From Opitutus sp. GAS368 (GTDB taxonomy: Bacteria; Verrucomicrobiota; Verrucomicrobiia; Opitutales; Opitutaceae), in NCBI RefSeq assembly GCF_900104925.1, contig NZ_LT629735.1:3083001-3147000 (forward strand): 64,000 nt of DNA, given 5' to 3'. Both the position numbers and the translations under genes were made by a program. Positions 1 to 28,956 of this stretch are shown piece by piece. A model generated the notes under the pieces. That model made no database searches. It saw nothing but the letters and a program-made list of their open reading frames with translations, and was not told the DNA's origin. Every line of letters starts with the position of its first letter. The first letter of the stretch is position 1.

Positions 1-611
1 TGCATGGTGGCTTCCTGGAGGAACGTTGCAATGCCGTTGGGCAGGTTGAGGCCGTAAAGGGCGATGGGTTTGTCGGCCCACTCGCCGGTCAGGCCGAGCT
101 GGCCCCAAGTGGTGATTTTGCCCCCCTGGGCCCAGATCTCCTCCAGCTGCGCGAGGGTGATCGCCTGCAGGGGATTGTCCTCGTTGACGTAGATCGCGAG
201 CGCCGGCGAATACCCCACGCGGTCGTAGGCACCACCGCAGACGAGAATCTGGGTGGGCTCGTAGCCGAATTTCTTCACGAACGCCTCCCGCTCGCCGGGA
301 AAGAGCGCCCGTGACGCGGGTCCGACGTGGCTCTGTCCGCTGATCAGGCCGGTGACCACGGTCGTGTTGGCGCGGGCCTCCATGGTGGTGGCGTCCTCGG
401 TCTCGGGATGCGCCGCGCGAAATAATTCTATCCACCCGAGGGTGATGGTATCCATGGTGGGCGAACCCATCGCATGGAATTCGCCGGCCAGTTTGCCGCC
501 GGGGACATATTCCGGGTAGGTGGAGCCGGCCCGGGCCGGACCGGCCGTGCCGGCCAACGCGGCGGTGAGCAGCAGATTTGCGATGCAGGAATGAATGAGG
601 TGATGTTTCAT
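1..611 (-). CDS. PstS-like solute-binding protein, 3' end beyond window
   Basis: Partial; the start at 611 is in the window and the C-terminus lies off the left edge. It opens with a signal peptide ending near 'GPARAG', followed by a PstS-like fold: an early 'MGSPTMDTI' loop, a 'GQSHVGPASR' segment and a 'LPNGIATF' loop. The same landmarks occur in its three downstream-strand neighbours at 652, 1704 and 3287, so it is the last visible member of a tandem paralogous array. PstS-type proteins bind phosphate or related oxyanions in the periplasm. The ligand here is not proven, and no ABC permease is visible beside it. Confidence 0.85.
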   Translation of the reverse strand, partial: MKHHLIHSCIANLLLTAALAGTAGPARAGSTYPEYVPGGKLAGEFHAMGSPTMDTITLGWIELFRAAHPETEDATTMEARANTTVVTGLISGQSHVGPASRALFPGEREAFVKKFGYEPTQILVCGGAYDRVGYSPALAIYVNEDNPLQAITLAQLEEIWAQGGKITTWGQLGLTGEWADKPIALYGLNLPNGIATFLQEATM

Positions 612-651
612 GGAGATGGGTCGGCCGGGCGCGCGGTTGGTGCGAAGCCGG

Positions 652-1707
652 CTAGTTCAATTTGGCGAGCTCGGCGGCGACTTCGCCGGCATCGAGGGGC
701 AGGAAACCGGCTTCCTGGGCGATAAAGGCTTGCTGGCCTTCCTTCGAAAGCACCATCCGCAGGTATTCCCGGACGAAAGGATCCAGGGGCTGACCCGGCG
801 CGCGGTTCACGTAGATGTAAATGTCGCGCGTGTAGGGATATTTCCGCGTGCGCACATCCTCCGGCGAGGCGCTGGAATAGTAGCCGTCCTCGCGGTCCGC
901 GATGGCGACGATCTTCACTTCGGGCAGGTTCTTGCCCTGGATACCGTCAAAGCTCGCGAAACCAATGGCCGAGGTTTCCTCGCTCACCCGTCGATACACT
1001 TCCGCCGTGTTCAGCGCTTCCTCGTAGTTCGCGGCGAGCGGCCGGTCGTCGAAGTGAGTCTGCTTCATGAAAATTGCGACACCCTGGATGTTGCCGTTGG
1101 TCGGGCTCGGCCCGATCGGATGAATCCGGTGACGCGCCCAATCCCCCGTGGCGCCAACCTGGCCCCAAAACGTGATGTCGCCCCGGCCTCCGCCGGTGGA
1201 AAAAATCCGCGCCACCTGCCCGGTGGTGAGTTTGTCGACCGGATTGCGGCGGTTGACGAAGATTGCGATGGGATTGGCCTTGCTGACCGCCGCGAAGGCG
1301 CCGTGCGCCACCTTGAGGGCGATGGGCTCGTAGCCGAACGTCATCCGGAACGCGCCGATCTCAGCGACCCAGAAGGCCCGCACGGTCGGTCCGAACGCCG
1401 ACACTCCGGTGTAAAGCCCGCCGATGGCGGTGGCGGCGCTTTTCAACTCCATCGTGAATTTCACCCCGGGGTGGGACTGCGTGAAAAGGGCGTTGAGATT
1501 CTTGAACGCGACGTCCATGCCCTGCGCCCCGATGATCCGGATCGAGCCATCCGGCAGCAGATAGCCGGCGTTCTTGGCCTGATCATAGGGGTGCGGCTGG
1601 TAGGCCGGCAATGCCGGGTCGACCGGCAACGGCACCGCCGCGAGCGTCACGACGGCCAGCAAGGCGGTCAGGGCGTATGGGGCGACGGGCGAGCGACGGA
1701 GGTTCAT
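652..1707 (-). CDS. PstS-like solute-binding protein
   Basis: 351 aa with an N-terminal signal peptide, then a PBP-like (PstS-type) domain over most of the length. Family landmarks are the first ligand loop, here 'IGAQGMDVAF' and the most divergent of the four, a 'VNRRNPVDKLT' strand, 'TTGQVARIF' and a 'PTNGNIQGVAIF' loop. The start codon overlaps the stop of the upstream paralogue (1704) by 4 bp, so the two are translationally coupled. The departure from the 'GTDTM' loop of its siblings suggests a different ligand or a scaffold role. Family membership is firm; phosphate as ligand is inference. Confidence 0.85.
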   Translation of the reverse strand: MNLRRSPVAPYALTALLAVVTLAAVPLPVDPALPAYQPHPYDQAKNAGYLLPDGSIRIIGAQGMDVAFKNLNALFTQSHPGVKFTMELKSAATAIGGLYTGVSAFGPTVRAFWVAEIGAFRMTFGYEPIALKVAHGAFAAVSKANPIAIFVNRRNPVDKLTTGQVARIFSTGGGRGDITFWGQVGATGDWARHRIHPIGPSPTNGNIQGVAIFMKQTHFDDRPLAANYEEALNTAEVYRRVSEETSAIGFASFDGIQGKNLPEVKIVAIADREDGYYSSASPEDVRTRKYPYTRDIYIYVNRAPGQPLDPFVREYLRMVLSKEGQQAFIAQEAGFLPLDAGEVAAELAKLN

Positions 1708-2738
1708 GGGGAAGGCGGTCTGCCCAGCTTGGCGAGTTCCTCGCGCACAACGGAGGCGGGCAGCGGCAGAAACCCGCTGCGCTCCGCCACCAGATCCTGG
1801 CCCTGGGAGCTGAGCACAATCCGCAGGAATTCCTTCACGTTGGGTTCAAGAGCTGCTCCCGGGGCGCGATTGAGGTAAAGGTAGGTGAAGCGGACCAGCG
1901 GGTAGCGCAGGCTCGCGATGTTTTTCGGCGTGGGGCTGGCGGCCGGGATGCCGGCGGCCGGCGCCAAGGCGAGCATCTTGACCCCGGCCCGATTGTAGCC
2001 GGGGGCGGCATAACCGAGGGCGAACCGGTCCTGCGCAATTCCGGCGAGAATGTCGACGAAGGCCTGCACGCCGCCGTTGGCCGCGCGTTGCGCGCTGCGG
2101 GACAATCCGTCGGTCGCCGGCCGCAGGATCATGGTCGGGCGGAAATCACGCCCGTGCATGCCGGCGGCCTGGAAAAAAGTCGCGGTGCCGTTCGGCAGCC
2201 GCAGGCCCCACAGAGCGATCGGCCGGCCCACCCATTCACCCGTCAGGCCCAGCTGGTCCCAGGTGGTGATCTTGCCATCGCGCGCAAAAATTTCCTCGAG
2301 TTGCGCCAGGGTGAGCTCCTTGAGCGGGTTGTCCCGGTGGACAAAGATCACGATGGGAGGGGAAAGGCCAAAGTCGGCGTAGGTGCCGAGGGTCACGCGG
2401 ATCGCCGTGGGGGGATAGCCGAATTTTTTGGTGAAGGCGGCCACCTCCTGGGCCGAGGCCTCGCGCGATAGCGGTCCGAGCTGGCTGGCCCCGCTCAGCA
2501 GGCCCGGGAACACCGTATTGGCCCCGCGCGCCTCCTGCGTCGCCTCCACCTGCGGATGCGCTCGCCGGAAAACCTCGAGCCACGCGAGCGTGAGGGTGTC
2601 CATCACATCCGTGCCCATGAGGTGCAGTTCTCCCGCCAGCGCGCCCTCGGGCGCATAGGCGGGCAAGCTTCCGGCCCACGCGGCAGAGCCGGCGAATGCG
2701 AAGGCCAGCAGCAGGAAAAAACGGGGAAGGTGCGGCAT
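1704..2738 (-). CDS. PstS-like solute-binding protein
   Basis: 344 aa with a signal peptide cleaved after 'AAWA' or 'AWAG', then a PstS-like periplasmic binding fold. Visible landmarks are 'MGTDVMDTLTL' near residue 40, 'GASQLGPLSREA', 'VHRDNPLKELTLAQ', 'WDQLGLTGEW' and 'LPNGTATFF'. The stop overlaps the start of the next paralogue (ATGA). A small secreted gene (2746-3249) lies 7 bp upstream, so the array reads as one transcript. The product probably binds an oxyanion in the periplasm. It could serve the TonB receptor of the same cluster rather than an ABC importer. Confidence 0.85.
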   Translation of the reverse strand: MPHLPRFFLLLAFAFAGSAAWAGSLPAYAPEGALAGELHLMGTDVMDTLTLAWLEVFRRAHPQVEATQEARGANTVFPGLLSGASQLGPLSREASAQEVAAFTKKFGYPPTAIRVTLGTYADFGLSPPIVIFVHRDNPLKELTLAQLEEIFARDGKITTWDQLGLTGEWVGRPIALWGLRLPNGTATFFQAAGMHGRDFRPTMILRPATDGLSRSAQRAANGGVQAFVDILAGIAQDRFALGYAAPGYNRAGVKMLALAPAAGIPAASPTPKNIASLRYPLVRFTYLYLNRAPGAALEPNVKEFLRIVLSSQGQDLVAERSGFLPLPASVVREELAKLGRPPSP

Positions 2739-2745
2739 AGTGCCT

Positions 2746-3249
2746 TCAGCCGGGCGGTCGGGAGAAGAGCGCGGCTAGGTTGGGAATCTGCTTGGCCAGG
2801 TCGTTCCGGATGGCAACTCCCGCCAGGTAGGTTTTCACTTCGTCCTCGGCGGCGGGATACCTGAAGGCGAGGGCCAGGGCACCGATGCGGTTGCCGCTGG
2901 CGTCCTTGAGCGGCAAAAGCAGTCCGCATCGGGTCGGATTCTTCAGGTGTGGCACCAGGATGGTGCGTCCACCCACGCCCACCGAAAGGTCGCCCTCGTC
3001 ATCGGGAGCGCCGATGCGATCGAGGGTGGAGGCGACGATGCCCGGGGCGGCCGCTCCAGGTGCCAGCGCATGAATGCCGGCCATGACCAGCCCGGGATGA
3101 TCGGCCACGAGGCTGTTGATCAGCCGCTGGGCGTAGATCTTGTTCTCGGCAGCCTTGCCCCAGGCGGGGCCGTCGGCCCGCAGGAAAGCAGGTAGCAGCG
3201 CCAGAATGGCCAAGGCGGGGGCAAAACGCGGGAAGGATAGCCGGTTCAT
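2746..3249 (-). CDS. small secreted protein, possibly PDC/Cache-like
   Basis: 167 aa. An N-terminal hydrophobic stretch (residues about 8-24, ending 'AFLRADG') is a likely signal peptide. The rest is a single alpha/beta domain. The segment 'LLLPLKDASGNRIGALALAF' near residues 110-130 resembles the central strands of PDC/Cache sensor folds; this is resemblance by eye only. It sits between two PstS-like genes, with 7 bp to the one downstream, and is probably co-transcribed. No catalytic motif is seen. A role as a periplasmic partner of the binding proteins is inference. Confidence 0.6.
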   Translation of the reverse strand: MNRLSFPRFAPALAILALLPAFLRADGPAWGKAAENKIYAQRLINSLVADHPGLVMAGIHALAPGAAAPGIVASTLDRIGAPDDEGDLSVGVGGRTILVPHLKNPTRCGLLLPLKDASGNRIGALALAFRYPAAEDEVKTYLAGVAIRNDLAKQIPNLAALFSRPPG

Positions 3250-3286
3250 GATCTGAGGTGGCTGGGGGCGGGAAAGGCCGGGGGAA

Positions 3287-4372
3287 TTATTCCAGCTTGG
3301 CGCGCTCCGCGGCGGCGAGCGCCGCGGGCAGCGGCAGAAAGAGGCCCTCCGCCTCGACGGCGCGCTGGCCTTCCAAGCTGAGGATGTAACGCAGAAATTC
3401 CTCGACCCGGGGGTCGAGCCGCTGGCCCGGGACGCGGTTGACGTAGAGGTAGACGAAGCGCGTGAGCGGATATTGCGCGGAGGCGGTTTCCTCGAACGTC
3501 CCGGTGTAGTAGGGACCCTGCGCGGTCCGCGCGATGGCGATGCTTTTTGTGGCGGAGTTCTCGTAAAGCAGGCTCACATAGCCGATCGCGCCCGGATCAG
3601 CGGCGATGTCGGCGAGAATGCGCACGGAGGCCTTGACCGGCTGGCCGGCTTTTTCGCCCTTGAGGCGGCTGGTGAAATCCGTGTCCCCGCAAACGTAGTG
3701 CCGGATGAAATTCGCGGTGCCGTCGGGCATGGCGATCCCGACGGGATGAACCTCGCGGCCGGCCCACTCCCCGGTCAGACCGAGCTGTCCCCAGGTCGTG
3801 ACCGGCTCGCGGCCGGGCGCGGTGCCATAGATTGCGGCCAGCTGGTCGAGGGTCAGCCGCGTGATGGGATTGTCGCGATGGACAAAAAAGACGCTGATGC
3901 CCGTGCGATCCGGCGCCCGCCACCCACCGAGCGCCACCCGGACCGCCAGCGGCGCATAGCCGTGCTTCCCCCTGAAGGCTTCAACTTCGGAGGGAAACAT
4001 CTCCCGGGAGAACGTGGCAAGGTCCGAGCGGCCCTCGGTGAGTGGGGTCGCCCCCGTCAACGAGCCCCTGGCCTCGAGGAGGAAATCGGCCTGCGGATGG
4101 AACCGGCGGAAACCCGCGATCCAAAGGTTCATAAGGTCGGCCATGGTGTCCGTGCCCATCACGACCAGTTTTTCCGTCACGCCGTGCGCCGGCACATAGG
4201 CCGGCAGGCCGGGATCGGCCCGGGCATGGAGCGTTTCGCGGAACTCGGCGCGCGATCCGCCCTGCACGGTGCGGTTGGGATCAACCGGGGCGGACGGCGG
4301 GGACTCCGCCGCGCCGGTCCGGCCGGTCAGGCCGACCAGCCCGGCCAGGACAATGGTGGAGGGCAGCCGCAT
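3287..4372 (-). CDS. PstS-like solute-binding protein
   Basis: 361 aa. A signal peptide is followed by a linker and a PstS-like domain with the clearest loops of the array: 'MGTDTMADLMNLW', 'GRSDLATFSREMF', 'FVHRDNPITRLTL', 'WGQLGLTGEWAG' and 'MPDGTANFIRHYVCG'. It starts 3 bp after the stop of the TonB-dependent receptor, so it is the first binding protein after the receptor in the transcript. Together they suggest a receptor plus periplasmic binder set for a scarce anion. Ordinary PstS is encoded with PstCAB; those genes are absent here. Confidence 0.87.
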   Translation of the reverse strand: MRLPSTIVLAGLVGLTGRTGAAESPPSAPVDPNRTVQGGSRAEFRETLHARADPGLPAYVPAHGVTEKLVVMGTDTMADLMNLWIAGFRRFHPQADFLLEARGSLTGATPLTEGRSDLATFSREMFPSEVEAFRGKHGYAPLAVRVALGGWRAPDRTGISVFFVHRDNPITRLTLDQLAAIYGTAPGREPVTTWGQLGLTGEWAGREVHPVGIAMPDGTANFIRHYVCGDTDFTSRLKGEKAGQPVKASVRILADIAADPGAIGYVSLLYENSATKSIAIARTAQGPYYTGTFEETASAQYPLTRFVYLYVNRVPGQRLDPRVEEFLRYILSLEGQRAVEAEGLFLPLPAALAAAERAKLE

Positions 4373-4375
4373 GGT

Positions 4376-7300
4376 TCAGAATTTGACCGCCGTGGAAACG
4401 AAGATGAGACGGCCGATCAGACCATAGGTCGAGGGGTCGACGGAAGAGTCGGTAAATGCCTGCGGGGCGCTCGGCGGCATGCGATCAAAGACATTGTTCA
4501 CGCCCAGCGTGAGCTTCGTGTTGCGGGGAATCCAGCGGTGCGTCGATTTCCCGGCGAAGGTGTAGCCGAACTGGAGGTCCCACGAGGCGTAGGAGGCCAC
4601 GGGGGTCGCCTTGATCGTCGTGCTGTTCGCATAAGTATCCCCGCCCACGCCGATGTCCGTGACGCCCGGCACGAAGGTATTGCCGACCATCACGCGCCAC
4701 GGGCCGCGATTCCAGTCAACGACCGAGTAGAGGCGGTAGCGCGGGATGGTGCCCTGCTGGCCGGTGCCGCCGTTGGTCGCGTAGCCCACGTATTCGTAGT
4801 AGGGCTGCTCGGGCAGCGCCTTGAACCGGTAGCTTTGGAAGATGGTCGCGGCGGAGTTGAAGTCGAACTTGCCGAGGTTTTCAGTGTGCAATTCGTAGTC
4901 CACGTTCACGTCGAACGCGCGCACCTTGGCGCCGCTGAGGTTGATGAAATTGCTCGTGAGATAGATGCTGGAGGCGCTGCCGCCGTTCCGCAGGAGATCA
5001 CTGAGCTGGTGGACCTGGGTGATCGCGACCGCCCCGGGCCGGCCGGGGAAGTTGTTGAGGGCGACATTGCCGAGGTAGGGCGAAGCCGCGCCCAGCCGGT
5101 CGGTGGTGCTCAGGGTCACGCCCGCGCCCGGCCCGCCCACGACGCCCTTTTGATCCGCGCTGATGTAATCCACGGTCAAGGTGAGGTTCTTGATTCCCTT
5201 CGGCGAGAACACGAGGCCCGCGGCCTGCGTCACGGCGGTCGAGGGCTTCAAGTCGGGATTGTTGGTCGTGAGGTTGTTGGCCTGGCCGGGAAAACCGAGG
5301 GCGGTCGGCACGGTGGCGGCGGTCGTCAGCGTCTGGTTGGACGGACCGAACAGAAAATAGAGGCCGGGAGCGGTGAACGACTTGGCATAGGTGTAGCGCA
5401 GGGTCAGGGACTCATCCACCGGCTGCCAGCGCACGCTGTATTTCGGCACGCTGGAATTTCCGACGTCACTGTATTTTTCCATGCGGTAGGCCAGGGAGAG
5501 GTCGAGGACCCGGGCCCCGCGGAAATTCCACGCCGGACTGGTGACGGGAATGCGCACCTCCGCGAAACCGGAGTCAATGCGCCGGCTCTGGTCGAAGGGA
5601 TCGAACGTCCCGGCGCCCGTCCAGCGCGCCGCGGTGGGTCCGCTGACATAGGAGTTCTCGTCGGGCTGGCCGAACACCTCTTCCTTGCGGGTGGAACCGC
5701 CCACCGCGAGGCCCACTTCACCCGCGGGCAGGTTGAAGGGGGTGCCGACCAGTTTCAGGTCGGTCGAGTCCAGCTTGCTGCCCACGGCGATCACCGCGGT
5801 GCCAAGCAGGTTGGCCAGTGACGCGGGATTGACCGCCGCCGCGCGGGCGAACGGGTCCAGTGCCGGCTGGAAGACGAAGCTCCCGGTCGCTTCCGAGAAA
5901 CCCGCGATCACCCGGCTGTAGGCGCCACCGGCGACCGCGTTGCCCGCGGCATCGAAGCCGCCGGCGAGGGCGCGGGTGAGGTTGGGCGTGTAGTAGACGT
6001 TCTTTTGGCGCTGGCTGATGCGATTGTCGTTGTAGGTGTAGGCGGCCTCCCAGTTCCACCTGGGGCCCAGCTCGCCGCGCAAGCCGCCGGAGGCCCAGTT
6101 CGATTTGCTGTTCTCCGTGTATTGGATCGGGGCGGGCAGGTAGGAGAAACCGATGCGGGGGAAGGCGACCGTGAGGGGATTGAAGGGTGCGCGGGCCGGC
6201 TCGGTGAACGTGGTCGTCTGCGCGGGCAGCTGGTAGGAGCTGTCGGTCTTGCCCAGGATGGCCGAGCCGAAGGCGACGAGTTTTTTGCCGAACAGGTCGG
6301 CGGACGCGTTGACGAGCGCGGTTTTCTGTTCCTGGCCGAGCAGCAGGGTGGTGTAGAGCGCGGAGTCGAAGGTGGCCGCGATCGTGGCGAAATCCGACGG
6401 CACATAGGTGCCGTTGGCGACGAGCGCGTTCAAGCTGGTCGCCGTCGCGTTGCTGCCGGTGGGATTGGTCTGGCTGGGTGAGTTGAGGGTGGGGTTGAGG
6501 AAGTGCGTCGGGAAGACCGTGCCCGAGCCGATCGCGCCGGCGATGGTGGCATTGCGGCCGGTGATCGACTGGCTGAAGGGGCGGTCCTTCTGGAACAACG
6601 GGGTGTTCTTCGTCCAGTTGCCGGAGACCGTGACGCTCACGCCCTTCTGGCCGGCCCCGGCGACCACGTAGGCGGAGCGTTCCGTGTAATTGCCGTTGCC
6701 GGTGGCCCAGGCCATGCGCCCGCCCGCCTCGGCGCCCTGGTAGTCGGATTTCAGGATGAAATTCACCACGCCGCCCACCGCATCGGAGCCGTAGATGGCG
6801 GAAGCCCCGTCGGTGAGGATTTCCACGCGCTCCACGGCGGCGACCGGGATCTGGTTGACGTCCACGAAATTCCTCCCGCGGATGCCGTTGGCGCCGTTGG
6901 TGGCGACCCGGCGGCCGTTGATCAACACCAGCGTATCGAGGTTGCGCAGCGCGATCTGCGAACCGCCCAGGGTGATCTGGTTGACGTTGTTCGCGTTGGC
7001 GGCGCCGATATTGCTCCGGCCGGTGATCGAGGGCAGCCGCTTGCGGAGCAGTTCCAGCATGTTGGCGTTCACGCCGGCCTGGTCGATCTGCTTGCTGCCG
7101 AGGATGGTGACGGGCGAGGACGTCGCATTCGCCGCGGTCGGGATGTTGGAACCGGTGACGGTAAACTTGGCCAGCTCGGTGACCTCCTCCTTATTCGGGC
7201 GGGCGCTCGGGGCCGTGGTCTGCGCCGCCCTTTGGTCTTTTGGGTCGGGAGCCTTTTTGACGGCCAGCAGGCCGCCCTTTGACTGGGTCGCCATCAGATC

Positions 7301-7576
7301 CGTGCCGGCGAGCATCAGCTCAAGCGCTTCCTGCGGCAGCAGCTCGCCCTTCACCGCGTTGGTCCGCGTGCCGCGCACGGCGTCGACGGCATAGACAATT
7401 TCGCGGCCGGATTGCTCGGCAAAGGCCTTCAGCGTGACCGCCGCATCAGCCGCGGGCAGGTCGAAGGCGCGCTTGACGGGCTCGGCGGCCCGGGCGGGGA
7501 GAAAAGACAGGGAGGCAAGGCAAAGGAAAGCGAAGGTCTTTCCGAAGGCGCGCTTGGGTGAGGCGTGAGGTGACAT
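4376..7576 (-). CDS. TonB-dependent receptor with N-terminal STN domain
   Basis: About 1066 aa from the ATG at 7576, which precedes a clean signal peptide ending 'LPARAA'; a longer reading frame to 7660 adds a non-signal-like extension. Order of domains: signal peptide, STN domain (about 35-100, 'FDLPAADAAVTLKAFAEQSG'), a TonB-box-like region, plug ('VLINGRRVATNG', 'VERVEILTDGASAIYGSDAVGG'), then a long beta barrel ending with hydrophobic 'FVSTAVKF', as expected for an outer-membrane protein. The STN domain normally contacts a FecR-type anti-sigma factor, and just such a gene with its ECF sigma factor lies directly upstream. The product therefore likely both imports a ligand and signals its presence. 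Confidence 0.93.
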   Translation of the reverse strand: MSPHASPKRAFGKTFAFLCLASLSFLPARAAEPVKRAFDLPAADAAVTLKAFAEQSGREIVYAVDAVRGTRTNAVKGELLPQEALELMLAGTDLMATQSKGGLLAVKKAPDPKDQRAAQTTAPSARPNKEEVTELAKFTVTGSNIPTAANATSSPVTILGSKQIDQAGVNANMLELLRKRLPSITGRSNIGAANANNVNQITLGGSQIALRNLDTLVLINGRRVATNGANGIRGRNFVDVNQIPVAAVERVEILTDGASAIYGSDAVGGVVNFILKSDYQGAEAGGRMAWATGNGNYTERSAYVVAGAGQKGVSVTVSGNWTKNTPLFQKDRPFSQSITGRNATIAGAIGSGTVFPTHFLNPTLNSPSQTNPTGSNATATSLNALVANGTYVPSDFATIAATFDSALYTTLLLGQEQKTALVNASADLFGKKLVAFGSAILGKTDSSYQLPAQTTTFTEPARAPFNPLTVAFPRIGFSYLPAPIQYTENSKSNWASGGLRGELGPRWNWEAAYTYNDNRISQRQKNVYYTPNLTRALAGGFDAAGNAVAGGAYSRVIAGFSEATGSFVFQPALDPFARAAAVNPASLANLLGTAVIAVGSKLDSTDLKLVGTPFNLPAGEVGLAVGGSTRKEEVFGQPDENSYVSGPTAARWTGAGTFDPFDQSRRIDSGFAEVRIPVTSPAWNFRGARVLDLSLAYRMEKYSDVGNSSVPKYSVRWQPVDESLTLRYTYAKSFTAPGLYFLFGPSNQTLTTAATVPTALGFPGQANNLTTNNPDLKPSTAVTQAAGLVFSPKGIKNLTLTVDYISADQKGVVGGPGAGVTLSTTDRLGAASPYLGNVALNNFPGRPGAVAITQVHQLSDLLRNGGSASSIYLTSNFINLSGAKVRAFDVNVDYELHTENLGKFDFNSAATIFQSYRFKALPEQPYYEYVGYATNGGTGQQGTIPRYRLYSVVDWNRGPWRVMVGNTFVPGVTDIGVGGDTYANSTTIKATPVASYASWDLQFGYTFAGKSTHRWIPRNTKLTLGVNNVFDRMPPSAPQAFTDSSVDPSTYGLIGRLIFVSTAVKF

Positions 7577-7665
7577 GGGGTAAGGGTGGGGCCGCCGCGA
7601 CATGCAGTCGGCCGCTGTCCCCTTTGAGACGCGCGAACCGGCCGGGCCCAGTGACAACAATCTGT

Positions 7666-8763
7666 TCAGCGCCGCCGGCGCAGGATGATTTCGGAGCCCC
7701 GGTGCTCAGCCGTGACGTCGAAATTCTCCTCCAGCACCTCGACAAAATTCTCGATGCTGTCGTAGCGGATGCGGCCGCTGATCCGCAGGCCTTCGAGGTC
7801 GGTGCCGCGGACCTGGAGATGCACGGCGCGCGGGCCGTCCTGCCCGGCGGCCGAGCGGTTGAACCGTTCCACGACCTCCGCGAGCGGCATGGCGTCGAAG
7901 ACCAGCCGGCTGCTTTGCCAGGAGAGGGCACGGGCGATCTGGGGCTCGCTCAGATTCTCGACGACGAGTTCCGGCGGTGTCGACGGGGTGGGAGCGGTGG
8001 GCACCGCGGTCCGTTGCCCGGCGACGAGAATCACGCCCGGGCCGAGCGCCGCCGGGGTTGCGGCGTCCCGGTGCGCTTCGCCGGAAACCGCGAGCGGCCG
8101 GCTGGCGGAGGTGACGCCCACCTTGCCCTCGGTCACAAGGACATCCACGGCGGTGGCGCCGAGCCGGACGTCGAAGGCGGTGCCGACGGCGCGGACGGAG
8201 ATATTGTTCGCCTCGACGATGAACGGCCGGAGCGGATTCTTCGCCACCTCAAAGTGAGCCTCGCCGCGCACCAGGCGGACGCGGCGCTCCGTGGCCGTGA
8301 AATGCTCGGCCACTTCGCTCCCGGAATTCAGCTCGACCCGGGAGCCGTCGGGCAGGCGCAGGAAATGCGGGGCGGCGGCGACCAGCGGCGCGGGGGCCAC
8401 AGTCGACGAGGGAGCCTGCCACCAGAAGAGGGCGGTCAGGGCGACGGCCGCCGCCGCCGCAACAGCCAGCGCCACCGGGGCGAAACCCCGGCGACGAACC
8501 AGCAGGTCCGGATCGACGGCCCCGTCCGGCGGGCGCGGATAAAAGGCCAGCCGGTCGAAAGTCTGGTAGGCGTCGTCGACCTCGGCCAGCATGGCCACGT
8601 GCCGCGGATCGGCGGCGCACCACTCGGCCAAGGCGGCCTGTTCATCCGGGCTCAACGGCCGCGCCGCCCGGAGCGCCAGCCATTCGGCCGCCTGCCGCTG
8701 GATGGATTGGGCGGTTGCGATCCCGGAGGAGGGTGTCGGCGTGGGGTGGACGGGTTTCATCAT
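7666..8763 (-). CDS. FecR-family transmembrane anti-sigma regulator
   Basis: About 365 aa from the ATGATG at 8763/8760, which overlaps the stop of the sigma-factor gene, so translation is coupled. Domains: a cytoplasmic helical N-terminus of the DUF4880 type ('AAEWLALRAARPLSPDEQAALAEWCAADPRH'-like region, about 20-60), one membrane segment (about 93-116), a periplasmic FecR domain ('LPDGSRVELNSGSEV', 'VRLVRGEAHFEVAKN', 'VGTAFDVR'), and a C-terminal STN/DUF4974-like domain. FecR proteins hold or activate the partner ECF sigma factor according to receptor occupancy. Order sigma-FecR-receptor matches the FecI/FecR/FecA type. Confidence 0.92.
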   Translation of the reverse strand: MMKPVHPTPTPSSGIATAQSIQRQAAEWLALRAARPLSPDEQAALAEWCAADPRHVAMLAEVDDAYQTFDRLAFYPRPPDGAVDPDLLVRRRGFAPVALAVAAAAAVALTALFWWQAPSSTVAPAPLVAAAPHFLRLPDGSRVELNSGSEVAEHFTATERRVRLVRGEAHFEVAKNPLRPFIVEANNISVRAVGTAFDVRLGATAVDVLVTEGKVGVTSASRPLAVSGEAHRDAATPAALGPGVILVAGQRTAVPTAPTPSTPPELVVENLSEPQIARALSWQSSRLVFDAMPLAEVVERFNRSAAGQDGPRAVHLQVRGTDLEGLRISGRIRYDSIENFVEVLEENFDVTAEHRGSEIILRRRR

Positions 8764-9446
8764 TTCCGGTTCACGCCATGGCGGCGCAGGTATTCCGTGC
8801 AGCTTTCCATGCCCCGCACCACATGGGTGCGGACCGTGTTTTCGGAGATGCCCAGTTTTTCGGCAACCTGCTTTTCGGTGAGGCCATAGATCTTGGTTAA
8901 AGTGATGACTTGGCGGCAACGGGTGGGCAGTCCCCGCAGCGCATCGGCCAGGAATTCGAGTTCCTGGCGGGCGCTGACGGTTGCCGGCACATCCGATCCT
9001 TCATCTAAGACGTGCAACTGCCCGGTTTCCGCGACAGCATCCGTGCGGGAAGCCACCCGGTGGCGCACTTCGTCGATGGCGGCGTTGCGGGCGATGGCAA
9101 ACAGCACGGCCTTGGGTGATCTGGGCATTGCGGTGCCGGGTTGGCTCTGGCGCCGCCAGAGGCGCAGGAAGGCAATCTGGGCGATGTCCTCCACATCCGG
9201 CAGCCGGGGAAACCGCGACCGCAGCCAGGATTTCAGCGCCGGGGCATGGGGGTGCACCTCGGCCACGAACCAACGCCCCTGATCGGTGCTGGGGGTCGGC
9301 TCGGAGGCGGGCAACAACGGGTTCACTCCGGGGAAGGGGTTGGGCTTGGTGGGGCGGATCTCGGACGATGCTGGGGCAACTGAATGCGGCGCTGCCAGGG
9401 GAGGGGAGGCAACAACCTGCGCTATGACGGAGGGAACAATAACCAC
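8760..9446 (-). CDS. ECF RNA polymerase sigma factor (FecI-like)
   Basis: 228 aa. Region 2 is seen around 'DVEDIAQIAFLRLWRRQ' and 'AIARNAAIDEVRHRV', and region 4 as a helix-turn-helix ('LPTRCRQVITLTKIYGLTEKQVAEKLGISENTVRTHV'-type segment split around residues 175-215). The first 50 residues are proline-rich and poorly conserved, so an internal start is possible. It heads the minus-strand cluster and overlaps the FecR gene by 4 bp. It probably directs transcription of the receptor and PstS-like array. Its target promoter was not identified by eye. Confidence 0.9.
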   Translation of the reverse strand: MVIVPSVIAQVVASPPLAAPHSVAPASSEIRPTKPNPFPGVNPLLPASEPTPSTDQGRWFVAEVHPHAPALKSWLRSRFPRLPDVEDIAQIAFLRLWRRQSQPGTAMPRSPKAVLFAIARNAAIDEVRHRVASRTDAVAETGQLHVLDEGSDVPATVSARQELEFLADALRGLPTRCRQVITLTKIYGLTEKQVAEKLGISENTVRTHVVRGMESCTEYLRRHGVNRK

Positions 9447-21877: not shown

Positions 21878-22273
21878 TTAACGACCTTTGGACCGGCTGG
21901 ATTTTGCCTCTCCCCAGACGGCATCACTGATCGACTTAGCACGCTGCTTTTCGTCATGCATGGCCGAATGATCAAAACTTGTCTGTGAGACTTGAGCATG
22001 TACTAGGGCAGGGGGAGGAGAGTCATGGGCAACAATCTGAGGTGGGTTTGGAGTCTTTTGCCGGCCGATCATAAAATAAAGGGCAGCACCTATTGGTCCG
22101 CCAAGTAACGTTACGAGAACCCACACGATGCGGTCTTTGTCATGGCGATGTGTGAGGCAGTGAATCAACGCGAAGAGCCAGAAGCCTAACATGCCGATTC
22201 CGAAAATAACAGAGGCTAGCATCATCATGATGCCCCCAGCCATAATGCCGCTTAGCTGATCCGTAGAATTCAT
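21878..22273 (-). CDS. small membrane protein, PLDc_N-like
   Basis: 131 aa with two membrane segments (about 10-37 and 48-70). The segment 'FWLFALIHCLTHRHDKDRI' then 'WVLVTLLGGPIGAALYFMIG' matches the PLD-nuclease N-terminal (PLDc_N) pattern of small membrane proteins. The C-terminal 60 residues are polar and unrecognised. Its start overlaps the stop of the nuclease gene (ATGA), so it is the last gene of the element A cargo and coupled to the nuclease. It may anchor or control the complex at the membrane; that is inference. Confidence 0.75.
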   Translation of the reverse strand: MNSTDQLSGIMAGGIMMMLASVIFGIGMLGFWLFALIHCLTHRHDKDRIVWVLVTLLGGPIGAALYFMIGRQKTPNPPQIVAHDSPPPALVHAQVSQTSFDHSAMHDEKQRAKSISDAVWGEAKSSRSKGR

Positions 22274-23481
22274 CCTTTTAGCAGATATTTAGTCACGGAA
22301 ATCTTTTTGTTTCCGCTTTTCGGAGTTATCTCCCAGTTGCCGTTGTCCTGAGAAATATGGACATGCCAATAAGCTTTTTCTTCGGTGACTGTTTGATTGA
22401 ACGTCGCTAACCAGGTTGAAAATTCGCTGAATGGAATCTTTAGGATGTCTCGCTCGGAACCACATCCAAATGTAACCCAAGCGGTCTTATATGTTTCTAA
22501 TTGGGATTTTTGAGAAGGGTGGAAAGCAAACCAATAGCCTGTTTGGGCACCCGATCCGAATTCTCGTGATATAGCCACGTATACACCCATGGAGCCATCA
22601 GGTGTCGCATGTAATGCCGGTGATTGCTTTACCAACGTCTCTTTGAAGTGCTTTTGGAGCCGGTCTACGCAAGCGGCCCGGAAATTGACGGGCGTGAATT
22701 TCTTGCCCTTCTTTTTGTCTTCTTGTGGTTCAGCCTCTGGGATTTCTTCATCAGGTTTCGCGTCTTTAGTGGCCGTGAACACCAGGTCTATGATCCCATC
22801 TACGCGGGTGAATTCCTGCGGGGTTAATATTTCGCGAATGCGATGCAGGGTTTGCTGATTCTCTGTCTCTTCCTTGATTCGGAGCAGTCGGAGAAGAGCC
22901 TCCACACTGATAATTCTAATGTCCCAGGCATAGCGCGAGCCGCGGACCTGTGCCTCAAGGCCGCCAGTATCTTCACGCCCAACTACGTAGAGAATAGACG
23001 ATTTATCCTCTGATAAGCGGGTTTCTTTAATGAGCTCTTTCCGGTAGTCAGCTGCAGTATCAAGGGAGAGCCGATATGCATCGGTGGTTTTTACCTCAAC
23101 GAGGATGGTAACTCCGTTTTCAGTATGCCACAGTCCGTCAAATCCAATTTCCCCAGCGGTTCCACGATAACGGCCATTCTCGATCTTGAATCCAAGTCGC
23201 TTGCCTATCTGATTTACGATGTCTTGTAGGGCCAGCCCGCTATCCTGGAATGGGGACTCTAGGCATTGCATGGCATATGCACTGAGCTCATTGGAGCTCA
23301 CATGGGCTAAGTATTCGCGGAATTCCTCAGAGGTGTGATTGCCGTCTTTAAGTTTTCCATCGCCAGCAAATACGAGCACTTGGTTTATAACCTTTCCACG
23401 GAGCTGGTCCGGTGTTTTTTTCCAAATTTCAACTAAAGGCATAAAGTGGAGTGTGAATCTCATTAGCCCGCTTGTAGTCAT
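22270..23481 (-). CDS. PD-(D/E)XK-like nuclease of element A
   Basis: 403 aa from the ATG at 23481; an internal ATG at 23442 is also possible. A restriction-endonuclease-like core is visible: 'GLALQDIVNQIGKRLGF' (helix 1), Asp115 in 'GEIGFDGLW', then Glu129 and Lys131 in 'ILVEVKTTD', that is D-(x13)-E-x-K. A polar linker rich in Glu/Lys (about 240-265) separates a C-terminal domain with aromatic residues ('GYWFAFHPSQKS', 'AYWHVHISQDNGNW'). There is no methylase beside it, so it is not an ordinary R-M enzyme. It is encoded behind two membrane proteins. A DNA- or RNA-cutting effector is likely; substrate unknown. Confidence 0.8.
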   Translation of the reverse strand: MTTSGLMRFTLHFMPLVEIWKKTPDQLRGKVINQVLVFAGDGKLKDGNHTSEEFREYLAHVSSNELSAYAMQCLESPFQDSGLALQDIVNQIGKRLGFKIENGRYRGTAGEIGFDGLWHTENGVTILVEVKTTDAYRLSLDTAADYRKELIKETRLSEDKSSILYVVGREDTGGLEAQVRGSRYAWDIRIISVEALLRLLRIKEETENQQTLHRIREILTPQEFTRVDGIIDLVFTATKDAKPDEEIPEAEPQEDKKKGKKFTPVNFRAACVDRLQKHFKETLVKQSPALHATPDGSMGVYVAISREFGSGAQTGYWFAFHPSQKSQLETYKTAWVTFGCGSERDILKIPFSEFSTWLATFNQTVTEEKAYWHVHISQDNGNWEITPKSGNKKISVTKYLLKG

Positions 23482-23628
23482 GCGGACAAATGTGAGGATA
23501 TTAACGGTTAGAAAGTGCTCGGTTGCCCTAATTAATGGTGCTGTTTTGAAAGTGCGACTGAGCGTGATGAGGCTGTATGTTTGTAATCTGAAAAGAACAC
23601 AGGACGTGCGCTTTCTGTGTGCAGAGGA

Positions 23629-24336
23629 TCATTTGTGTCCAGCAGGAGCTGTTAGTTGGGATGTGCTATTTCCCAAAGGTGAGGCCTTGCTTGGCGCTAC
23701 CGTTCCTAGGTTCATTAACAGACTCGCTAGTGCGGCAAAAACCAACCCAAATTGAATTCCTACCAATCGGCGATGCGTCTTGGTTTGTTTAATCGCTTTG
23801 TCCCAACGGGCGAAGGGATTCTCCTGAAGCTTCGTCTCAATATCTTTATGGTATTTGGTGTATCCCGGCAGATGTCGATGAATCGCCCATTCGACCTCCT
23901 CAACATCCACATTCCATTCTACTTTTGTGCCCGCTTCAGCGGCTTCGATGGCTATTTTTTTTACTTCCTCCAGAACTTTCTTCATCGGACCTTCGATATC
24001 ATCGGCGAATTCAGAGTCTTTCGAGATGTGAACCTTGATTGCCGACCAAAAGGAATTTGCGATGAATCCGCAAAGACCCGAGATCAACAACGCGCCGAGA
24101 GATATCTGAATCTCGCTAACAGTATATAGTTCCATTAAGTCCCTCAGGTGGGATGCCAGTAGTGCTAGTGTGCCCCCGGTCACCAATAGCATCCAATCCG
24201 ATTCTCGCTGCGTGTCGCTCGATTGTTTTATTAGGATCTTGTAACCACAAATGCGAAGCCGGGTTTTAATATCGGCGCGAAGGACGTTTATCTTTTTTTG
24301 GAACTCGTTCGGCTCTTTGTTGGGTAAATCAATCAT
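23629..24336 (-). CDS. membrane protein of element A cargo
   Basis: 235 aa. Basic, helical N-terminus (1-45), membrane segments at about 48-63 and 76-98, a soluble helical domain with a coiled-coil-like 'EGPMKKVLEEVKKIAIEAAEAG' stretch (cited in part), and a third membrane segment at about 190-208. No enzyme motif. It starts 10 bp after the stop of the 411-aa gene, and both genes share the sequence CT(C/T)TAGTATATG at the start codon. Unknown family. The context suggests a sensor or membrane effector working with the 411-aa protein and the nuclease. Confidence 0.75.
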   Translation of the reverse strand: MIDLPNKEPNEFQKKINVLRADIKTRLRICGYKILIKQSSDTQRESDWMLLVTGGTLALLASHLRDLMELYTVSEIQISLGALLISGLCGFIANSFWSAIKVHISKDSEFADDIEGPMKKVLEEVKKIAIEAAEAGTKVEWNVDVEEVEWAIHRHLPGYTKYHKDIETKLQENPFARWDKAIKQTKTHRRLVGIQFGLVFAALASLLMNLGTVAPSKASPLGNSTSQLTAPAGHK

Positions 24337-24346
24337 ATACTAAAGC

Positions 24347-25582
24347 TCACTTTTTCCCTCCAAGTTTGAATCCTGTGCCATCAGGCGCTTTTACCTGAAT
24401 TGAAGTCAGTTGAGGAAACATTTCCGCTATCGTTTGAGGATGTGAGGCACCAGAGTCACTTGCTGGCGTGTGTGAAAATAAATTCCTGGATAGCTCGTGC
24501 AGTAATTCAGTAGGAAGCTGCTTGTTGTTGTCTTGTGCGTCACGCACTGCCTCTAGAAGCCAGCCAGCTCTACCTATATCGACTAAAAGATTTCTGTTCC
24601 GGAAGTCCTCCTCCGCGTGCAGCCGAGCCCAGACGCTCATCCAACGAATGTAGTAAACGCAGAATGTGGTAAACGCTATTAAAGGAATAATAGATTTCAG
24701 CGAGAGAAGGGTCCACTCCCACCATGGCACTGAAGCGATATCCTTTGCGCCACTCAGGAGACTGTAGCTCTGGTAACCATAAATTCCTGCGAGGGCTGCC
24801 GTAACCAGTAGAGCTACGATATAGATGAAATGAATGGCCGTGCGCTTGGCGCTGGTGCCCGAGGTGACGCTCCAACCATCAAGCCATTTGCCGATTTGAG
24901 TGATTTGTTTTTGCTGTTCTTGCCTTGCCACGTATCGAGCCTCTTTCGTTTCAAACGACTTCACCTTTTCATCTAGCGCGTTTTCTTTTTCGGCTAAGCT
25001 AGCCCTCTTTGCTTCGAAGTCAGAGGACAGAATTTTCTCCTTTGAATCGTATTTCGAGTGAAGCTCGTTTTCGAGCCGTGTCCTGTCCTGAAGTATTTGG
25101 TTAGTAAATCTTCCGTACAGTTCTTCGAGCCTCGCTAGTCCTTGGTCGCGTTTTTCGACAAAAAAGCCGAGCTCTGTTGATAGGTCAGTCGGAAGTGGAC
25201 GATTAAATCCTGCGTTGCCAAATTCGCCACCCACAAAGCCACTAATTTTGATGTAGCGGGCATGATCATTTCCGAACTGGCCCTGCTGGACATTAATCAG
25301 GTCAAAGGGCTGCGCTGCACTTCGGGAGATGCTGCACAGCTCGGATCCATCAGCCCAAAGTGATATGTGGTTTCCGCTGTAGCCTGAGCTGCTGGCAACT
25401 AAGGCCGCGACAGCATTCGTGCTCCATGGGTCTTGTGTGCCGCTCCGTGCAGTTTGCACGAATACTTGACCCTGCTCGCCATTGAATGTCACACGCCAGT
25501 CATTTGAAGTAGAGGCATCTCCGACCTTACGGAGCTTTTCAAGGAGGAGTGAGTCAGGGTATTTGGGTATGGGATACTGCAT
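24347..25582 (-). CDS. coiled-coil membrane protein of element A cargo
   Basis: 411 aa. Residues 1-130 form an unrecognised beta-rich domain ('WRVTFNGEQGQVFVQTARSG', 'NHISLWADGSELCSISRSA', 'ARYIKISGFVGGEFG') which resembles carbohydrate- or nucleotide-sensing sandwiches only superficially. A long coiled coil follows (about 140-235, rich in Glu/Lys/Arg), then membrane segments at about 251-270 and 290-312 and a soluble C-terminus. It begins 30 bp after the integrase stop on the same strand. The domain plan (soluble sensor, coiled coil, membrane hairpin) is typical of membrane-acting defence or stress proteins, but no named family is recognised. Confidence 0.75.
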   Translation of the reverse strand: MQYPIPKYPDSLLLEKLRKVGDASTSNDWRVTFNGEQGQVFVQTARSGTQDPWSTNAVAALVASSSGYSGNHISLWADGSELCSISRSAAQPFDLINVQQGQFGNDHARYIKISGFVGGEFGNAGFNRPLPTDLSTELGFFVEKRDQGLARLEELYGRFTNQILQDRTRLENELHSKYDSKEKILSSDFEAKRASLAEKENALDEKVKSFETKEARYVARQEQQKQITQIGKWLDGWSVTSGTSAKRTAIHFIYIVALLVTAALAGIYGYQSYSLLSGAKDIASVPWWEWTLLSLKSIIPLIAFTTFCVYYIRWMSVWARLHAEEDFRNRNLLVDIGRAGWLLEAVRDAQDNNKQLPTELLHELSRNLFSHTPASDSGASHPQTIAEMFPQLTSIQVKAPDGTGFKLGGKK

Positions 25583-25612
25583 ATACTAGAGTTTTTTCCG
25601 AATTAACTAAAC

Positions 25613-26722
25613 TCAAGATGCGCGCTGGCCCACACACACCACTAAGGAAGGGAGCTTGGCCAGCGAATCGCTCAGGGCAAGCTGCGAAGCATCGGTGTAT
25701 ATTTTCATCGTAAGCTTTGGGTCACTGTGCCGCATGAGGTGAACAGCGTCAGTAAGAGGCACATGATTTACCGCAAGGAGAGTCCCGAAGGTGTTGCGGA
25801 GGGCATGAAAATCCAACCTTCGCCCGCTCTCATCAATGAAGATGATGCCCGCCCGGGACAGGTCTTTGCGGAGCGTCTTCACGCGTGGCACCTGCCCGTT
25901 GAACACAAATTGAAATGGCGACGCATCGGCCGGACGAATTGACCGCAAGGCCTCGACGACTTCGGGACGCAGGGGCAGCCGCGCATCCTTCTTGTTTTTG
26001 GTGATGGATGCGGGAGCCAGGACGAAAGGTTGTGGTGCGTCCAGGTGGAGGTCGCCCCATTTGAGGTTGTTGAGCTCTTTTCGCCTCAATCCTGTGTAGA
26101 TGGCGGCCAGATAGACGACGGCTCGGGAGTGGGGGGCATGGCTGAGAAGATTTGCCACCTCAGTTTGGCTGAGTGCTCGCCTAAATTGAGCCTGGCCCCT
26201 CGTGTCGGTGCGCTTGACGTATTTCAGGGGATTGGCGGTGAGCATCCGTTGGCCTTCCAGCCAGTCAAAGAAGGTCGTGGCACACGCGAGCAGATCGTTG
26301 GTGGTCTTGCCCGTCAGCCCGCATTGGTTGCGCCATTGGCAAAATGAACGGGCAGTAACGTCCTGCAGTTTGAGCCACCGGCACCGCGCAAAGAGCTTCC
26401 GCAGAATCTTGCGGTATTTCTTAACGGTAGTGATAGCGCGGCCCCGGGATTCAACGTCCTGCAGGTATTCGCTCAGGAGGTCGAGTAGGGGCCGTTCTGC
26501 TGCTTCCCTGACCGGCTTAGGAGCAAGGACGCCATTGTGCTCTTTCTCCCGTTCCTCGGCCAGCTGAGACAGCTTGAACAGCGCCAATCGCTTGTCGGGT
26601 GTGTTGAGGGCAACGGTGCTGACCGAGGTTTCCCACGGCATCTTCAAGCGACCAGACCATGAGGCTGCTTCCGTGAGCTCCCCATCAATCCGGCGACGTT
26701 GCTTGAAGACGTGACAAATCAT
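25613..26722 (-). CDS. tyrosine recombinase (integrase) of element A
   Basis: 369 aa. N-terminal arm-binding and SAM-like core-binding domains (about 75-170), then the catalytic domain with the full set: Arg213 ('GLRRKEL'), Lys242 ('ITKNKK'), His306 and Arg309 ('FHALRNTFGT'), His332 ('MRHSDPKLTM') and Tyr342 ('KIYTDAS'). It should catalyse integration and excision at the tRNA-Pro repeats. Start overlaps the excisionase stop by 4 bp. Closely related to the element B enzyme at 29240, and to fragments at 32590-32727. Confidence 0.96.
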   Translation of the reverse strand: MICHVFKQRRRIDGELTEAASWSGRLKMPWETSVSTVALNTPDKRLALFKLSQLAEEREKEHNGVLAPKPVREAAERPLLDLLSEYLQDVESRGRAITTVKKYRKILRKLFARCRWLKLQDVTARSFCQWRNQCGLTGKTTNDLLACATTFFDWLEGQRMLTANPLKYVKRTDTRGQAQFRRALSQTEVANLLSHAPHSRAVVYLAAIYTGLRRKELNNLKWGDLHLDAPQPFVLAPASITKNKKDARLPLRPEVVEALRSIRPADASPFQFVFNGQVPRVKTLRKDLSRAGIIFIDESGRRLDFHALRNTFGTLLAVNHVPLTDAVHLMRHSDPKLTMKIYTDASQLALSDSLAKLPSLVVCVGQRAS

Positions 26723-26928
26723 GATGCCGTATCTGGACCGAGCAGGCGTTTAAGGTATTCCTCAAGGGCAGTAAGAGGGACGCGACGAGCCCGCCCAATC
26801 CGCACAGCGAGCGGGAAGCGCCCTGCCGCCATTTCGCGCTCCAAGGTGCGCCGGCAGACCGATAAACGGCGTGCGGTCTCGTCCAAGGTCAGGAGGGCCG
26901 GTTGATCTTCGGGCGTCGGCGTTTTCAT
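26719..26928 (-). CDS. excisionase-like HTH protein of element A
   Basis: 69 aa with a MerR/HTH_17-type winged helix: 'LLTLDETARRLSVCRRTLERE', 'GRFPLAVRIGRARRVP', 'LEEYLKRLLG' (cited in pieces). Such proteins bend DNA to favour excision and often repress the integrase promoter. It overlaps the integrase gene by 4 bp and the preceding gene by 4 bp. Element B encodes an equivalent of exactly the same length. Confidence 0.9.
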   Translation of the reverse strand: MKTPTPEDQPALLTLDETARRLSVCRRTLEREMAAGRFPLAVRIGRARRVPLTALEEYLKRLLGPDTAS

Positions 26929-27227
26929 TTCTTCGCCTCCTCATCCAGTTCGGCCCGCTTGTCCTCGTTGGCGACGACATCCTCCACCCGCGAAAAATGC
27001 TCTGGCGGGGGCAGGGAAGCCTCCATGGCGCGATACACCTGCATATGGGTGACCGTGACGCCCAGCTGCACGCTGAGCCACGCGGCGATTTCGCGGAGCG
27101 ACATGCCTTTCTCCCGCTTGAGGGTCCACATGACTTGGAGGTAATCGCTCAGGGTTACGCCACGGGGTAGAGCGTTAGCCTTGGCGAGCAACTGAGCGGG
27201 GGTAGGGATGGATTGCTTTCGTTTCAT
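26925..27227 (-). CDS. putative DNA-binding protein of element A
   Basis: 100 aa. It contains a helix-turn-helix-like segment ('EKGMSLREIAAWLSVQLGVTV', cited in part, then 'THMQVYRAME') and an acidic C-terminus. It resembles small regulatory proteins of integrative elements, without a firm family. It lies between the HTH gene at 27243 (15-bp gap) and the excisionase (4-bp overlap), so it is part of the same transcript. Confidence 0.7.
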   Translation of the reverse strand: MKRKQSIPTPAQLLAKANALPRGVTLSDYLQVMWTLKREKGMSLREIAAWLSVQLGVTVTHMQVYRAMEASLPPPEHFSRVEDVVANEDKRAELDEEAKK

Positions 27228-27242
27228 GTGTTACCAAGTGTT

Positions 27243-27596
27243 CTATCTGTTACGCCCTGTCAAGTCTGGTCGCACCAAAAACAGCAAAAGCAGTTTACGA
27301 CGCTCCCGGGCGAGCCTCTGCGCTTCCAGCCGGTTGGCATAGTATGCCTCTAGCCTTTCCTGTGATAATTCGCCTGCTAGGTCTCTAGCGCGTTTCTTAT
27401 TCCGGAGATAGATCAGCGGGGCGTCGCATTGCCACCGTAGCGAGGCTCCGATGCGTAGCGGCTCAGGGAAAAGACCACGCTTCACGGCGCGTTCAATCGT
27501 GCGGGTGGATAGTCCAAGTCCCAATGCCACCTGCTCGAGGGTGAGCAGCGGGGGATGTATCGGGGCCGTCTTGGGTGTCTGTCGCTTGTGACTCAT
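27243..27596 (-). CDS. second HTH/excisionase-like protein of element A
   Basis: 117 aa from the ATG at 27596. The sequence upstream of it in frame is a GC-rich palindrome and not protein-like. HTH_17-type motif: 'LLTLEQVALGLGLSTRTIER', 'GLFPEPLRIGASLRW'. The C-terminal third is very basic (Arg/Leu-rich). It is the first gene of the element A transcript and sits immediately behind a candidate promoter/operator at 27606-27631, so autoregulation is plausible. Confidence 0.75.
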   Translation of the reverse strand: MSHKRQTPKTAPIHPPLLTLEQVALGLGLSTRTIERAVKRGLFPEPLRIGASLRWQCDAPLIYLRNKKRARDLAGELSQERLEAYYANRLEAQRLARERRKLLLLFLVRPDLTGRNR

Positions 27597-27605
27597 TGCG
27601 ACATT

Positions 27606-27631
27606 GGGCCACAGATTATATGATATGGCCC
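27606..27631 (-). promoter_or_regulatory. candidate promoter with overlapping operator, element A
   Basis: On the minus strand a perfect TATAAT (27615-27620) lies within an inverted repeat GGGCCA (27606-27611) / TGGCCC (27626-27631). The start codon at 27596 is only about 10-20 bases downstream, so the leader would be very short. The symmetry over the -10 is what a self-repressing HTH protein would use. The -35 is weak (CCTTGG). Confidence 0.5.
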
Positions 27632-27642
27632 GAATACCAAGG

Positions 27643-27940
27643 GGCCGGCGGTCGCGGCGCTGCGCGCCGCATCCCGTCCGGCCCGGTGCCATGAGTTGCT
27701 GATAGCTCGCGCGCCCGAGACCCGAACAGCCGAACCGCTTTGAGGGGCGGCGTTGCCGGCTAACCCGTTCGCGGCTAGGCCGGCACAGCGGACGCCAAGA
27801 CGCGGGCGAGGGTCTGTCCTCTCCGGCGTGCTACGGACGCCTATGGCGTCCTTTCTGGGGGTGGATTCCACCCCCAGCCCCCCGCGTTTGTGTGCGCGTT
27901 GTGTGCGATCTGTGTGTTCAACCGATGGTGACATTTGCTT
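27643..27940. other. non-coding end region of element A
   Basis: GC-rich and palindromic (GCGGTCGCGGCGCTGCGCGCCGC around 27650-27672, cited as two arms GCGGTCGCGG and CTGCGCGCCGC), ending with the arm-like repeat at 27899-27916. A related GCGGTCGCGCTGCGCGC stretch lies at the same relative place in element B (about 30803-30819). No supported gene. Confidence 0.5.
27899..27916 (+). repeat. putative integrase arm site, right
   Basis: TTGTGTGCGATCTGTGTG, identical to 21855-21872 and in direct orientation, about 65 bp from the att repeat at 27981. Confidence 0.6.
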
Positions 27941-27980
27941 TTCATTGTTATGTCACCTCTTTGCTGAACGGGCTGGGGAC

Positions 27981-28012
27981 GTTCGAATCTCACCAGCCCG
28001 ACCATTTTCCCC
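27981..28012 (+). repeat. attachment-site repeat 2
   Basis: Identical 32-bp copy of the tRNA-Pro 3' end and flank. It is the right boundary of element A and left boundary of element B. The 5' part of the tRNA is absent here. A hairpin CTGACGGCA/TGCCGTCAG (28012-28020, 28033-28041) follows. Confidence 0.92.
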
Positions 28013-28160: not shown

Positions 28161-28181
28161 ATGTTCTGCGCAGCAAGACTG

Positions 28182-28937: not shown

Positions 28938-28956
28938 AAAGTTTCCTAGCAGGGAG

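Follow-up and report, generated by a model that had tools for sequence, protein, structure and literature searches.

An array of PstS-scaffold binding proteins behind a TonB-dependent receptor in Opitutus sp. GAS368: a putative capture module for ligands other than phosphate

Introduction

What do PstS-like binding proteins bind when they are encoded in tandem behind a TonB-dependent receptor and no phosphate permease accompanies them? The question is raised by a gene cluster at positions 1–9446 of a 64,000-nucleotide stretch of the Opitutus sp. GAS368 genome (contig NZ_LT629735.1, positions 3083001–3147000; this whole stretch is called the window below). The genome, 4.15 Mb in one contig, is labelled G000 among the genomes compared here. 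Read leftward from 9446 on the minus strand, the cluster encodes an extracytoplasmic function (ECF) sigma factor, a FecR-type regulator, a TonB receptor, a PstS-like protein, an exported protein of 167 amino acids (aa) and three more PstS-like proteins. The first-pass annotation of this sequence had suggested a receptor-linked system that senses or takes up phosphate or another oxyanion without an ATP-binding cassette (ABC) permease. Its description of the genes was confirmed: four domains matching the Pfam family PBP_like_2 (PF12849) follow a FecI/FecR-type pair and a TonB receptor in one operon-like run. As for the ligand, phosphate is not supported, given the family scores, the lost pocket residues and the separate pst set described below, and the part of the proposal that names another oxyanion may still hold. 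We give slightly more credence than doubt to a different reading, in which these genes make up a regulated module for nutrient capture, its binding pockets remodelled away from phosphate and each fixed for its own ligand.

Two features had escaped the first reading, the exported 167-aa protein and a 30-domain array elsewhere in the same genome. In this array, 30 PstS-like domains lie within about 48 kb (1460195–1508602), and the window cluster is its small sister. The genome holds 39 PBP_like_2 matches, the remainder being three at 1446094–1448834, the four of the window, the PstS of a pst operon and one other. Of the 252 family genomes searched, 13 encode proteins of the array type, i.e., those with E < 1e-100 against a profile built from 22 array proteins of this genome; the weakest of the 13 has 4e-110, and the next group starts from 4e-86. 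Among 387 genomes drawn from the whole phylum, none but G000 itself reaches 1e-100, the best other match being 5e-90.

Loss of the phosphate pocket

The four binding proteins of the window, all encoded on the minus strand and all above the Pfam cut-off for PBP_like_2, lie at 3287–4372 (protein 1, 62 bits), 1704–2738 (protein 2, 69.1 bits), 652–1707 (protein 3, 48.5 bits) and 1–611 (protein 4, truncated by the left edge of the window, with 33.3 bits for its portion inside). Protein 4 is complete in the genome, with 340 aa and a C-terminal part that lies left of the window and ends at 3082589, and it then scores 55.5 bits. The PstS-type periplasmic binding fold is borne out by these matches and by structural comparison. 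For protein 2, whose model has a predicted local distance difference test (pLDDT) score of 88.4, the nearest solved structure is 4omb (E 6.5e-55). 4omb is also the best Foldseek match (E 6.8e-33). The nearest solved structures of the array proteins are likewise 4omb and 4pqj, annotated as phosphate-binding protein and, we presume, both PstS of Pseudomonas aeruginosa.

Reference proteins came from 12 regions around lower-scoring relatives. Nine of these are ordinary pst operons with PstC and PstA adjoining the binding protein, two (G600:C5 and the second G288 region) have neither gene beside it, and one (G294) yielded no readable genes with the simple gene caller; a two-domain relative near the pst operon of G371 was excluded from the nine. 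The phosphate contacts of E. coli PstS, which we take to be T10, S38, D56, R135, S139, G140 and T141, with R at the D56 site in the 4omb type, are all intact in nine of nine pst-operon PstS proteins and in none of 214 array and window domains, where the maximum is five. The equivalent of R135 is present in two of the 214. In all four window proteins this arginine is missing, as is the S of the SGT motif. Their pocket letters are TSRIDGT, VARLNGT, GARPNGV and TNRLNGI for proteins 1 to 4, and protein 1 retains five of the seven residues. Control positions of the scaffold (W, Y, G, N) are present in >95% of 210 array domains. These counts cover 35 of the 37 array and window domains of G000, two having been missed by the gene caller; two domains of G214, missed in the same way, were added by hand for the tree only.

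The scores for the PstS family TIGR02136 point in the same direction: the three complete window proteins (the cut fourth being left out) reach 102.6, 114.3 and 124.7 bits, under the cut-off of 206.6, and the pst-operon PstS of a relative is above it with 243.2. In the tree, the nine pst-operon PstS proteins, 4omb and one outgroup sequence cluster together (support 1.0) to the exclusion of all array members; rooting failed, as the two outgroup sequences fell into different places, and only this grouping is used. Judged from their sequences, the array and window proteins are not ordinary phosphate binders.

Pst genes are absent from the cluster and present elsewhere

Permease genes had been suggested as something to look for left of the window. 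Beyond protein 4, ribF- and truB-like genes were found there in the opposite orientation, and no pstCAB; a pst operon directly left of the window as the source of phosphate uptake was accordingly rejected. Neither PstA nor PstC was matched anywhere in the 863 kb that cover the arrays, related regions and this DNA. The proposal of a receptor-linked set without an ABC permease is supported for the cluster. Four PstB-type matches occur in the 863 kb, each with at most 110 bits vs 400 for true PstB. The genome has its own pst set, PstS-PstC-PstA-PstB-PhoU with a phosphate-selective porin, at 363936–370686.

Each pocket is conserved across genomes

Pairs of proteins were called orthologue-like if they were reciprocal best matches with at least 55% identity. 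In 474 such pairs, identity at the seven pocket positions is 0.88 vs 0.72 at other positions, and in 2195 paralogue pairs from the same genome the relation is inverted, 0.19 vs 0.39. This contrast was not reached by any of 200 seven-column sets drawn at random. Because the seven positions are conserved between orthologues and divergent between paralogues of the same genome, they show a specificity-determining pattern, and by this sequence criterion each array member appears to have its own pocket, conserved across genomes. For 32 of 35 domains of G000, the nearest protein comes from a different genome and is not a paralogue in G000 itself; the three exceptions, by identities, are all in the window cluster. 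A G214 relative of protein 2, 56–57% identical, has the identical seven pocket letters and sits in a run of binding protein, GAF-type protein and two binding proteins, like the window. The arrays are probably a conserved panel of orphan binding proteins for distinct non-phosphate ligands.

Arrays and their recurrent partners

The contigs with matches belong to Lacunisphaera, Opitutus, Opitutaceae and uncultured Opitutae metagenome-assembled genomes (MAGs), and the array genomes span eight genera. Since the genome searches score the best few candidates per genome, copy numbers are lower bounds, and some array genomes are fragmented drafts. The highest number of first-look binder candidates, 82 to 110, was seen in G009 (3.0 Mb; contigs C1, C23, C24, C27 and C34).

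The large array of G000 repeats the module of the window, i.e., ECF sigma factor, FecR, receptor with STN-like domain, binding proteins and GAF-type protein. Between the two, the sigma factors are 45% identical (173 columns), the FecR proteins 44% and the receptors 47% (1106 columns). In addition, the large array contains a second receptor type, beta-propeller proteins, an NMT1-type binding protein, cytochrome b561, PepSY_TM and a 2-hydroxycarboxylate carrier of the 2HCT family, and a histidine kinase and a response regulator, named by eye, lie near it. In gene maps of the array genomes the same partners recur repeatedly, and some are linked by gene fusion (NMT1 with periplasmic binding protein, two binding proteins with each other, GAF with propeller). 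A further fusion type, whose likeness was judged by eye, joins an N-terminal domain without family to a binding protein or to a GAF domain. The binding protein at L033 15207–16970 has an extra N-terminal domain of 250 aa without family; judged by eye, this domain recurs in further arrays, and G214 has it joined to a GAF-type domain.

The exported protein

The 167-aa protein encoded at 2746–3249 (minus strand) matches no family of Pfam or NCBIfam at E 0.001, though it may be a distant relative of a GAF sequence family. An AlphaFold2 model made from it and 12 relatives (pLDDT 84.8) matches the GAF domain 4g3w best, with Z 11.7, a root-mean-square deviation of 3.3 and 120 residues aligned; other GAF domains have Z 9–11, and the Foldseek TM-scores for the GAF match are modest. 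The protein is therefore predicted, on the strength of this model, to have a GAF fold. Its export, like that of the other small proteins of the cluster, was judged by eye from the N-terminus.

GAF-type proteins occur in 17 of the 252 family genomes, namely in 11 of 13 array genomes (G073 and G242, fragmented drafts, gave no match) vs 6 of 239 others. The phylum draw contains three among 387 genomes, all within this family, and a scan of a genome collection found four weaker relatives in other phyla. Since GAF-type proteins also occur without binding proteins, paired with a propeller (G021, G059), the GAF protein accompanies the binding proteins as a partner and does not form part of them. In G000, a single protein at 132007–133803 (L119), far from any binding protein, contains four GAF-type domains in a row. 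At 432239–440751 (L120) a GAF-type protein is encoded next to a pair of propeller genes, a TonB receptor gene and genes for tartrate dehydrogenase and MmgE/PrpD; a similar neighbourhood is found in G214. Distant relatives at L131 9215–10387 and L132 10001–10480 (an Acidobacteria MAG and a Desulfobacterales MAG) have neighbours that look chromate-related by eye.

Regulatory genes and operon

The ECF sigma factor (8760–9446, minus strand), in FecI-like position, matches Sigma70_r2 and Sigma70_r4_2 and is above the cut-off of the sigma70-ECF superfamily. Next to it on the same strand is the FecR-type anti-sigma regulator (7666–8763; FecR E 8.5e-19, DUF4880 and a weak FecR_C), whose probable start, as far as the sequence suggests, is the ATG at 8763 that overlaps the stop codon of the sigma gene. 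These two genes sit directly upstream of the receptor gene, as in signalling of the FecI/FecR/FecA type. The outer-membrane receptor (4376–7660, minus strand; Plug E 3e-15) has a putative N-terminal STN-like signalling domain, and it more likely begins at an internal ATG near 7576. Because the spacing between genes is only −4 to +40 bases, the cluster from sigma factor to binding proteins is likely to be a single operon.

Function of the module

From these genes we infer the class of ligand, the direction of flow, the signalling and the hand-over as follows. The TonB receptor would carry a scarce solute across the outer membrane, and its STN domain would send a signal, relayed by FecR, to the ECF sigma factor and so switch on the operon. 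The four PstS-scaffold proteins would act as periplasmic binders, their ligands probably being small organic anions or metal complexes of these. They may hand the ligand to carriers encoded elsewhere, such as the 2HCT type that recurs beside large arrays, or present it to sensors, and the exported GAF-fold protein may be a second periplasmic ligand sensor or carrier.

As to the ligands, the 2HCT carrier was found in 9 of 13 array genomes vs 9 of 239 others, the fragmented drafts G204, G115, G073 and G242 being array genomes without a match. Sugar-acid and uronate genes lie near some arrays, and tartrate dehydrogenase lies beside GAF and binding-protein genes in G214 and beside GAF, propeller and receptor genes in G000. 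With low certainty, organic anions are named as the likeliest ligand class, with metal complexes of such anions as a variant. RraA-like and DASS genes were also seen near some arrays.

Several points weigh against the reading as a nutrient-capture module for such ligands. The 2HCT carrier adjoins large arrays and not the window cluster, and a single carrier serving about 30 binding proteins would be odd. Tartrate dehydrogenase above the cut-off occurs in 2 of 13 array genomes vs 2 of 36 hand-chosen controls, i.e., without enrichment, and tartrate or sugar-acid catabolism was dropped as a ligand clue for this reason. The STN domain of the window receptor is recognisable with 21.3 bits on the N-terminal segment, under the curated cut-off of 28.4; that of the large-array receptor, with 27.9, is also just below it. 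The seven pocket positions are those of E. coli PstS, mapped onto the 4omb chain by alignment. Furthermore, the 13 array genomes are related to each other and not independent, so that Fisher values overstate independence.

A wider form of the nutrient-capture reading, to which we would give a little less than an even chance, is a periplasmic ligand library: about 30 paralogues on one scaffold, each with a fixed pocket of its own and maintained as tandem arrays in several genera of the family, would together recognise many related organic anions by way of shared TonB receptors, FecR/ECF pairs and exported GAF sensors, with secondary carriers replacing the ABC permease.

It is also possible, though rather unlikely, that the arrays are sensory panels, in which the binding proteins take no part in transport and instead inform FecR, the receptor or the histidine kinase beside large arrays that a ligand is present, like BctDECBA of Bordetella. 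Arrays are flanked by two-component genes in G000, G066, G025, G208, G115 and G212, GAF-fold proteins are sensor-like, and orphan binding proteins with a sensory role are described in PMC5994714. However, the window cluster has no kinase, 2HCT carriers recur beside the large arrays, and TonB receptors imply uptake. Capture of phosphate or another inorganic oxyanion under starvation seems improbable: the scaffold is that of PstS and protein 1 keeps most of the pocket, but none of the 214 domains has it in full, the R135 equivalent is lost from all four window proteins, these score under the PstS cut-off, and the genome has a separate pst operon. Still less probable is a structural or adhesive role without small-ligand binding, for which one may cite the N-terminal LPxYxP extension common to the array proteins and 4omb, and a phosphate-independent role that PstS of Pseudomonas is said to have in biofilms; a dead pocket would not be more conserved than the rest of the protein between orthologues. 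It is scarcely credible that the array proteins serve, as alternatives to PstS, the one PstCAB permease encoded far away, even though such a permease exists in the genome and one permease for many binders has been proposed in Bordetella (PMC5994714), since the pst operon has its own PstS, the array pockets are without the phosphate residues and the array regions have no match to PstA or PstC.

Comparison with known systems

PstS proteins of the 4omb/4pqj type resemble the array proteins in fold, length, N-terminal extension and conserved scaffold (match to the array profile at E 5.4e-87, and best Foldseek match), and differ in that the array proteins have lost the phosphate residues, score under the PstS cut-off and have no pst permease genes adjoining. 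A mass expansion of orphan periplasmic binders is known for the TctC/Bug family: according to PMC5994714, Rhodoplanes has 434 such genes with a largest tandem array of nine, and those of Bordetella are mostly orphan, with shared permeases or sensing proposed. The likeness lies in a lineage-specific mass of orphan binders beside sensors and other transporters. It is a different protein family, since the window proteins match only PBP_like_2 in Pfam at E 0.001 and not TctC; moreover, the Rhodoplanes genes are spread over the genome, in contrast to 30 domains in 48 kb here, and the present arrays differ further in that their members have orthologues in other genera and are accompanied by TonB receptors and FecR/ECF genes. 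In the ferric citrate system FecI-FecR-FecA, as described in PMC11658791, a receptor with a signalling domain is coupled to FecR and FecI, and the clustering of ECF sigma factor, FecR and receptor, here with a putative signalling domain, is shared with the window. ABC importer genes are missing here, and PstS-scaffold binding proteins and the exported GAF-fold protein are found instead. With GAF domains such as 4g3w, the 167-aa protein shares the predicted fold, and it differs in being exported, free-standing and without a sequence-family match. By analogy, the present case seems to combine an orphan expansion of the TctC/Bug kind with a FecA-type system on the PstS scaffold. No description of such arrays was found in searches of an open-access library, which lacks most subscription journals.

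Pfam and the nearest solved relatives would label such proteins as phosphate binders. If this label is wrong for whole arrays, the capacity for phosphate acquisition is over-counted and a system of nutrient recognition is overlooked. The arrays tie TonB receptors to binding proteins without an ABC importer, and they form a natural set of binders with differing pockets and with orthologues in several genera, which can be used to study the evolution of specificity on one scaffold.

Elsewhere in the window, the stretch 22000–32000 has a G+C content of 0.48–0.60 vs about 0.65 in its surroundings. tRNA genes are located at 20778, 21641 and 28956, and a recombinase-like frame was noted by eye near 31950. 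This stretch looks like an acquired island.

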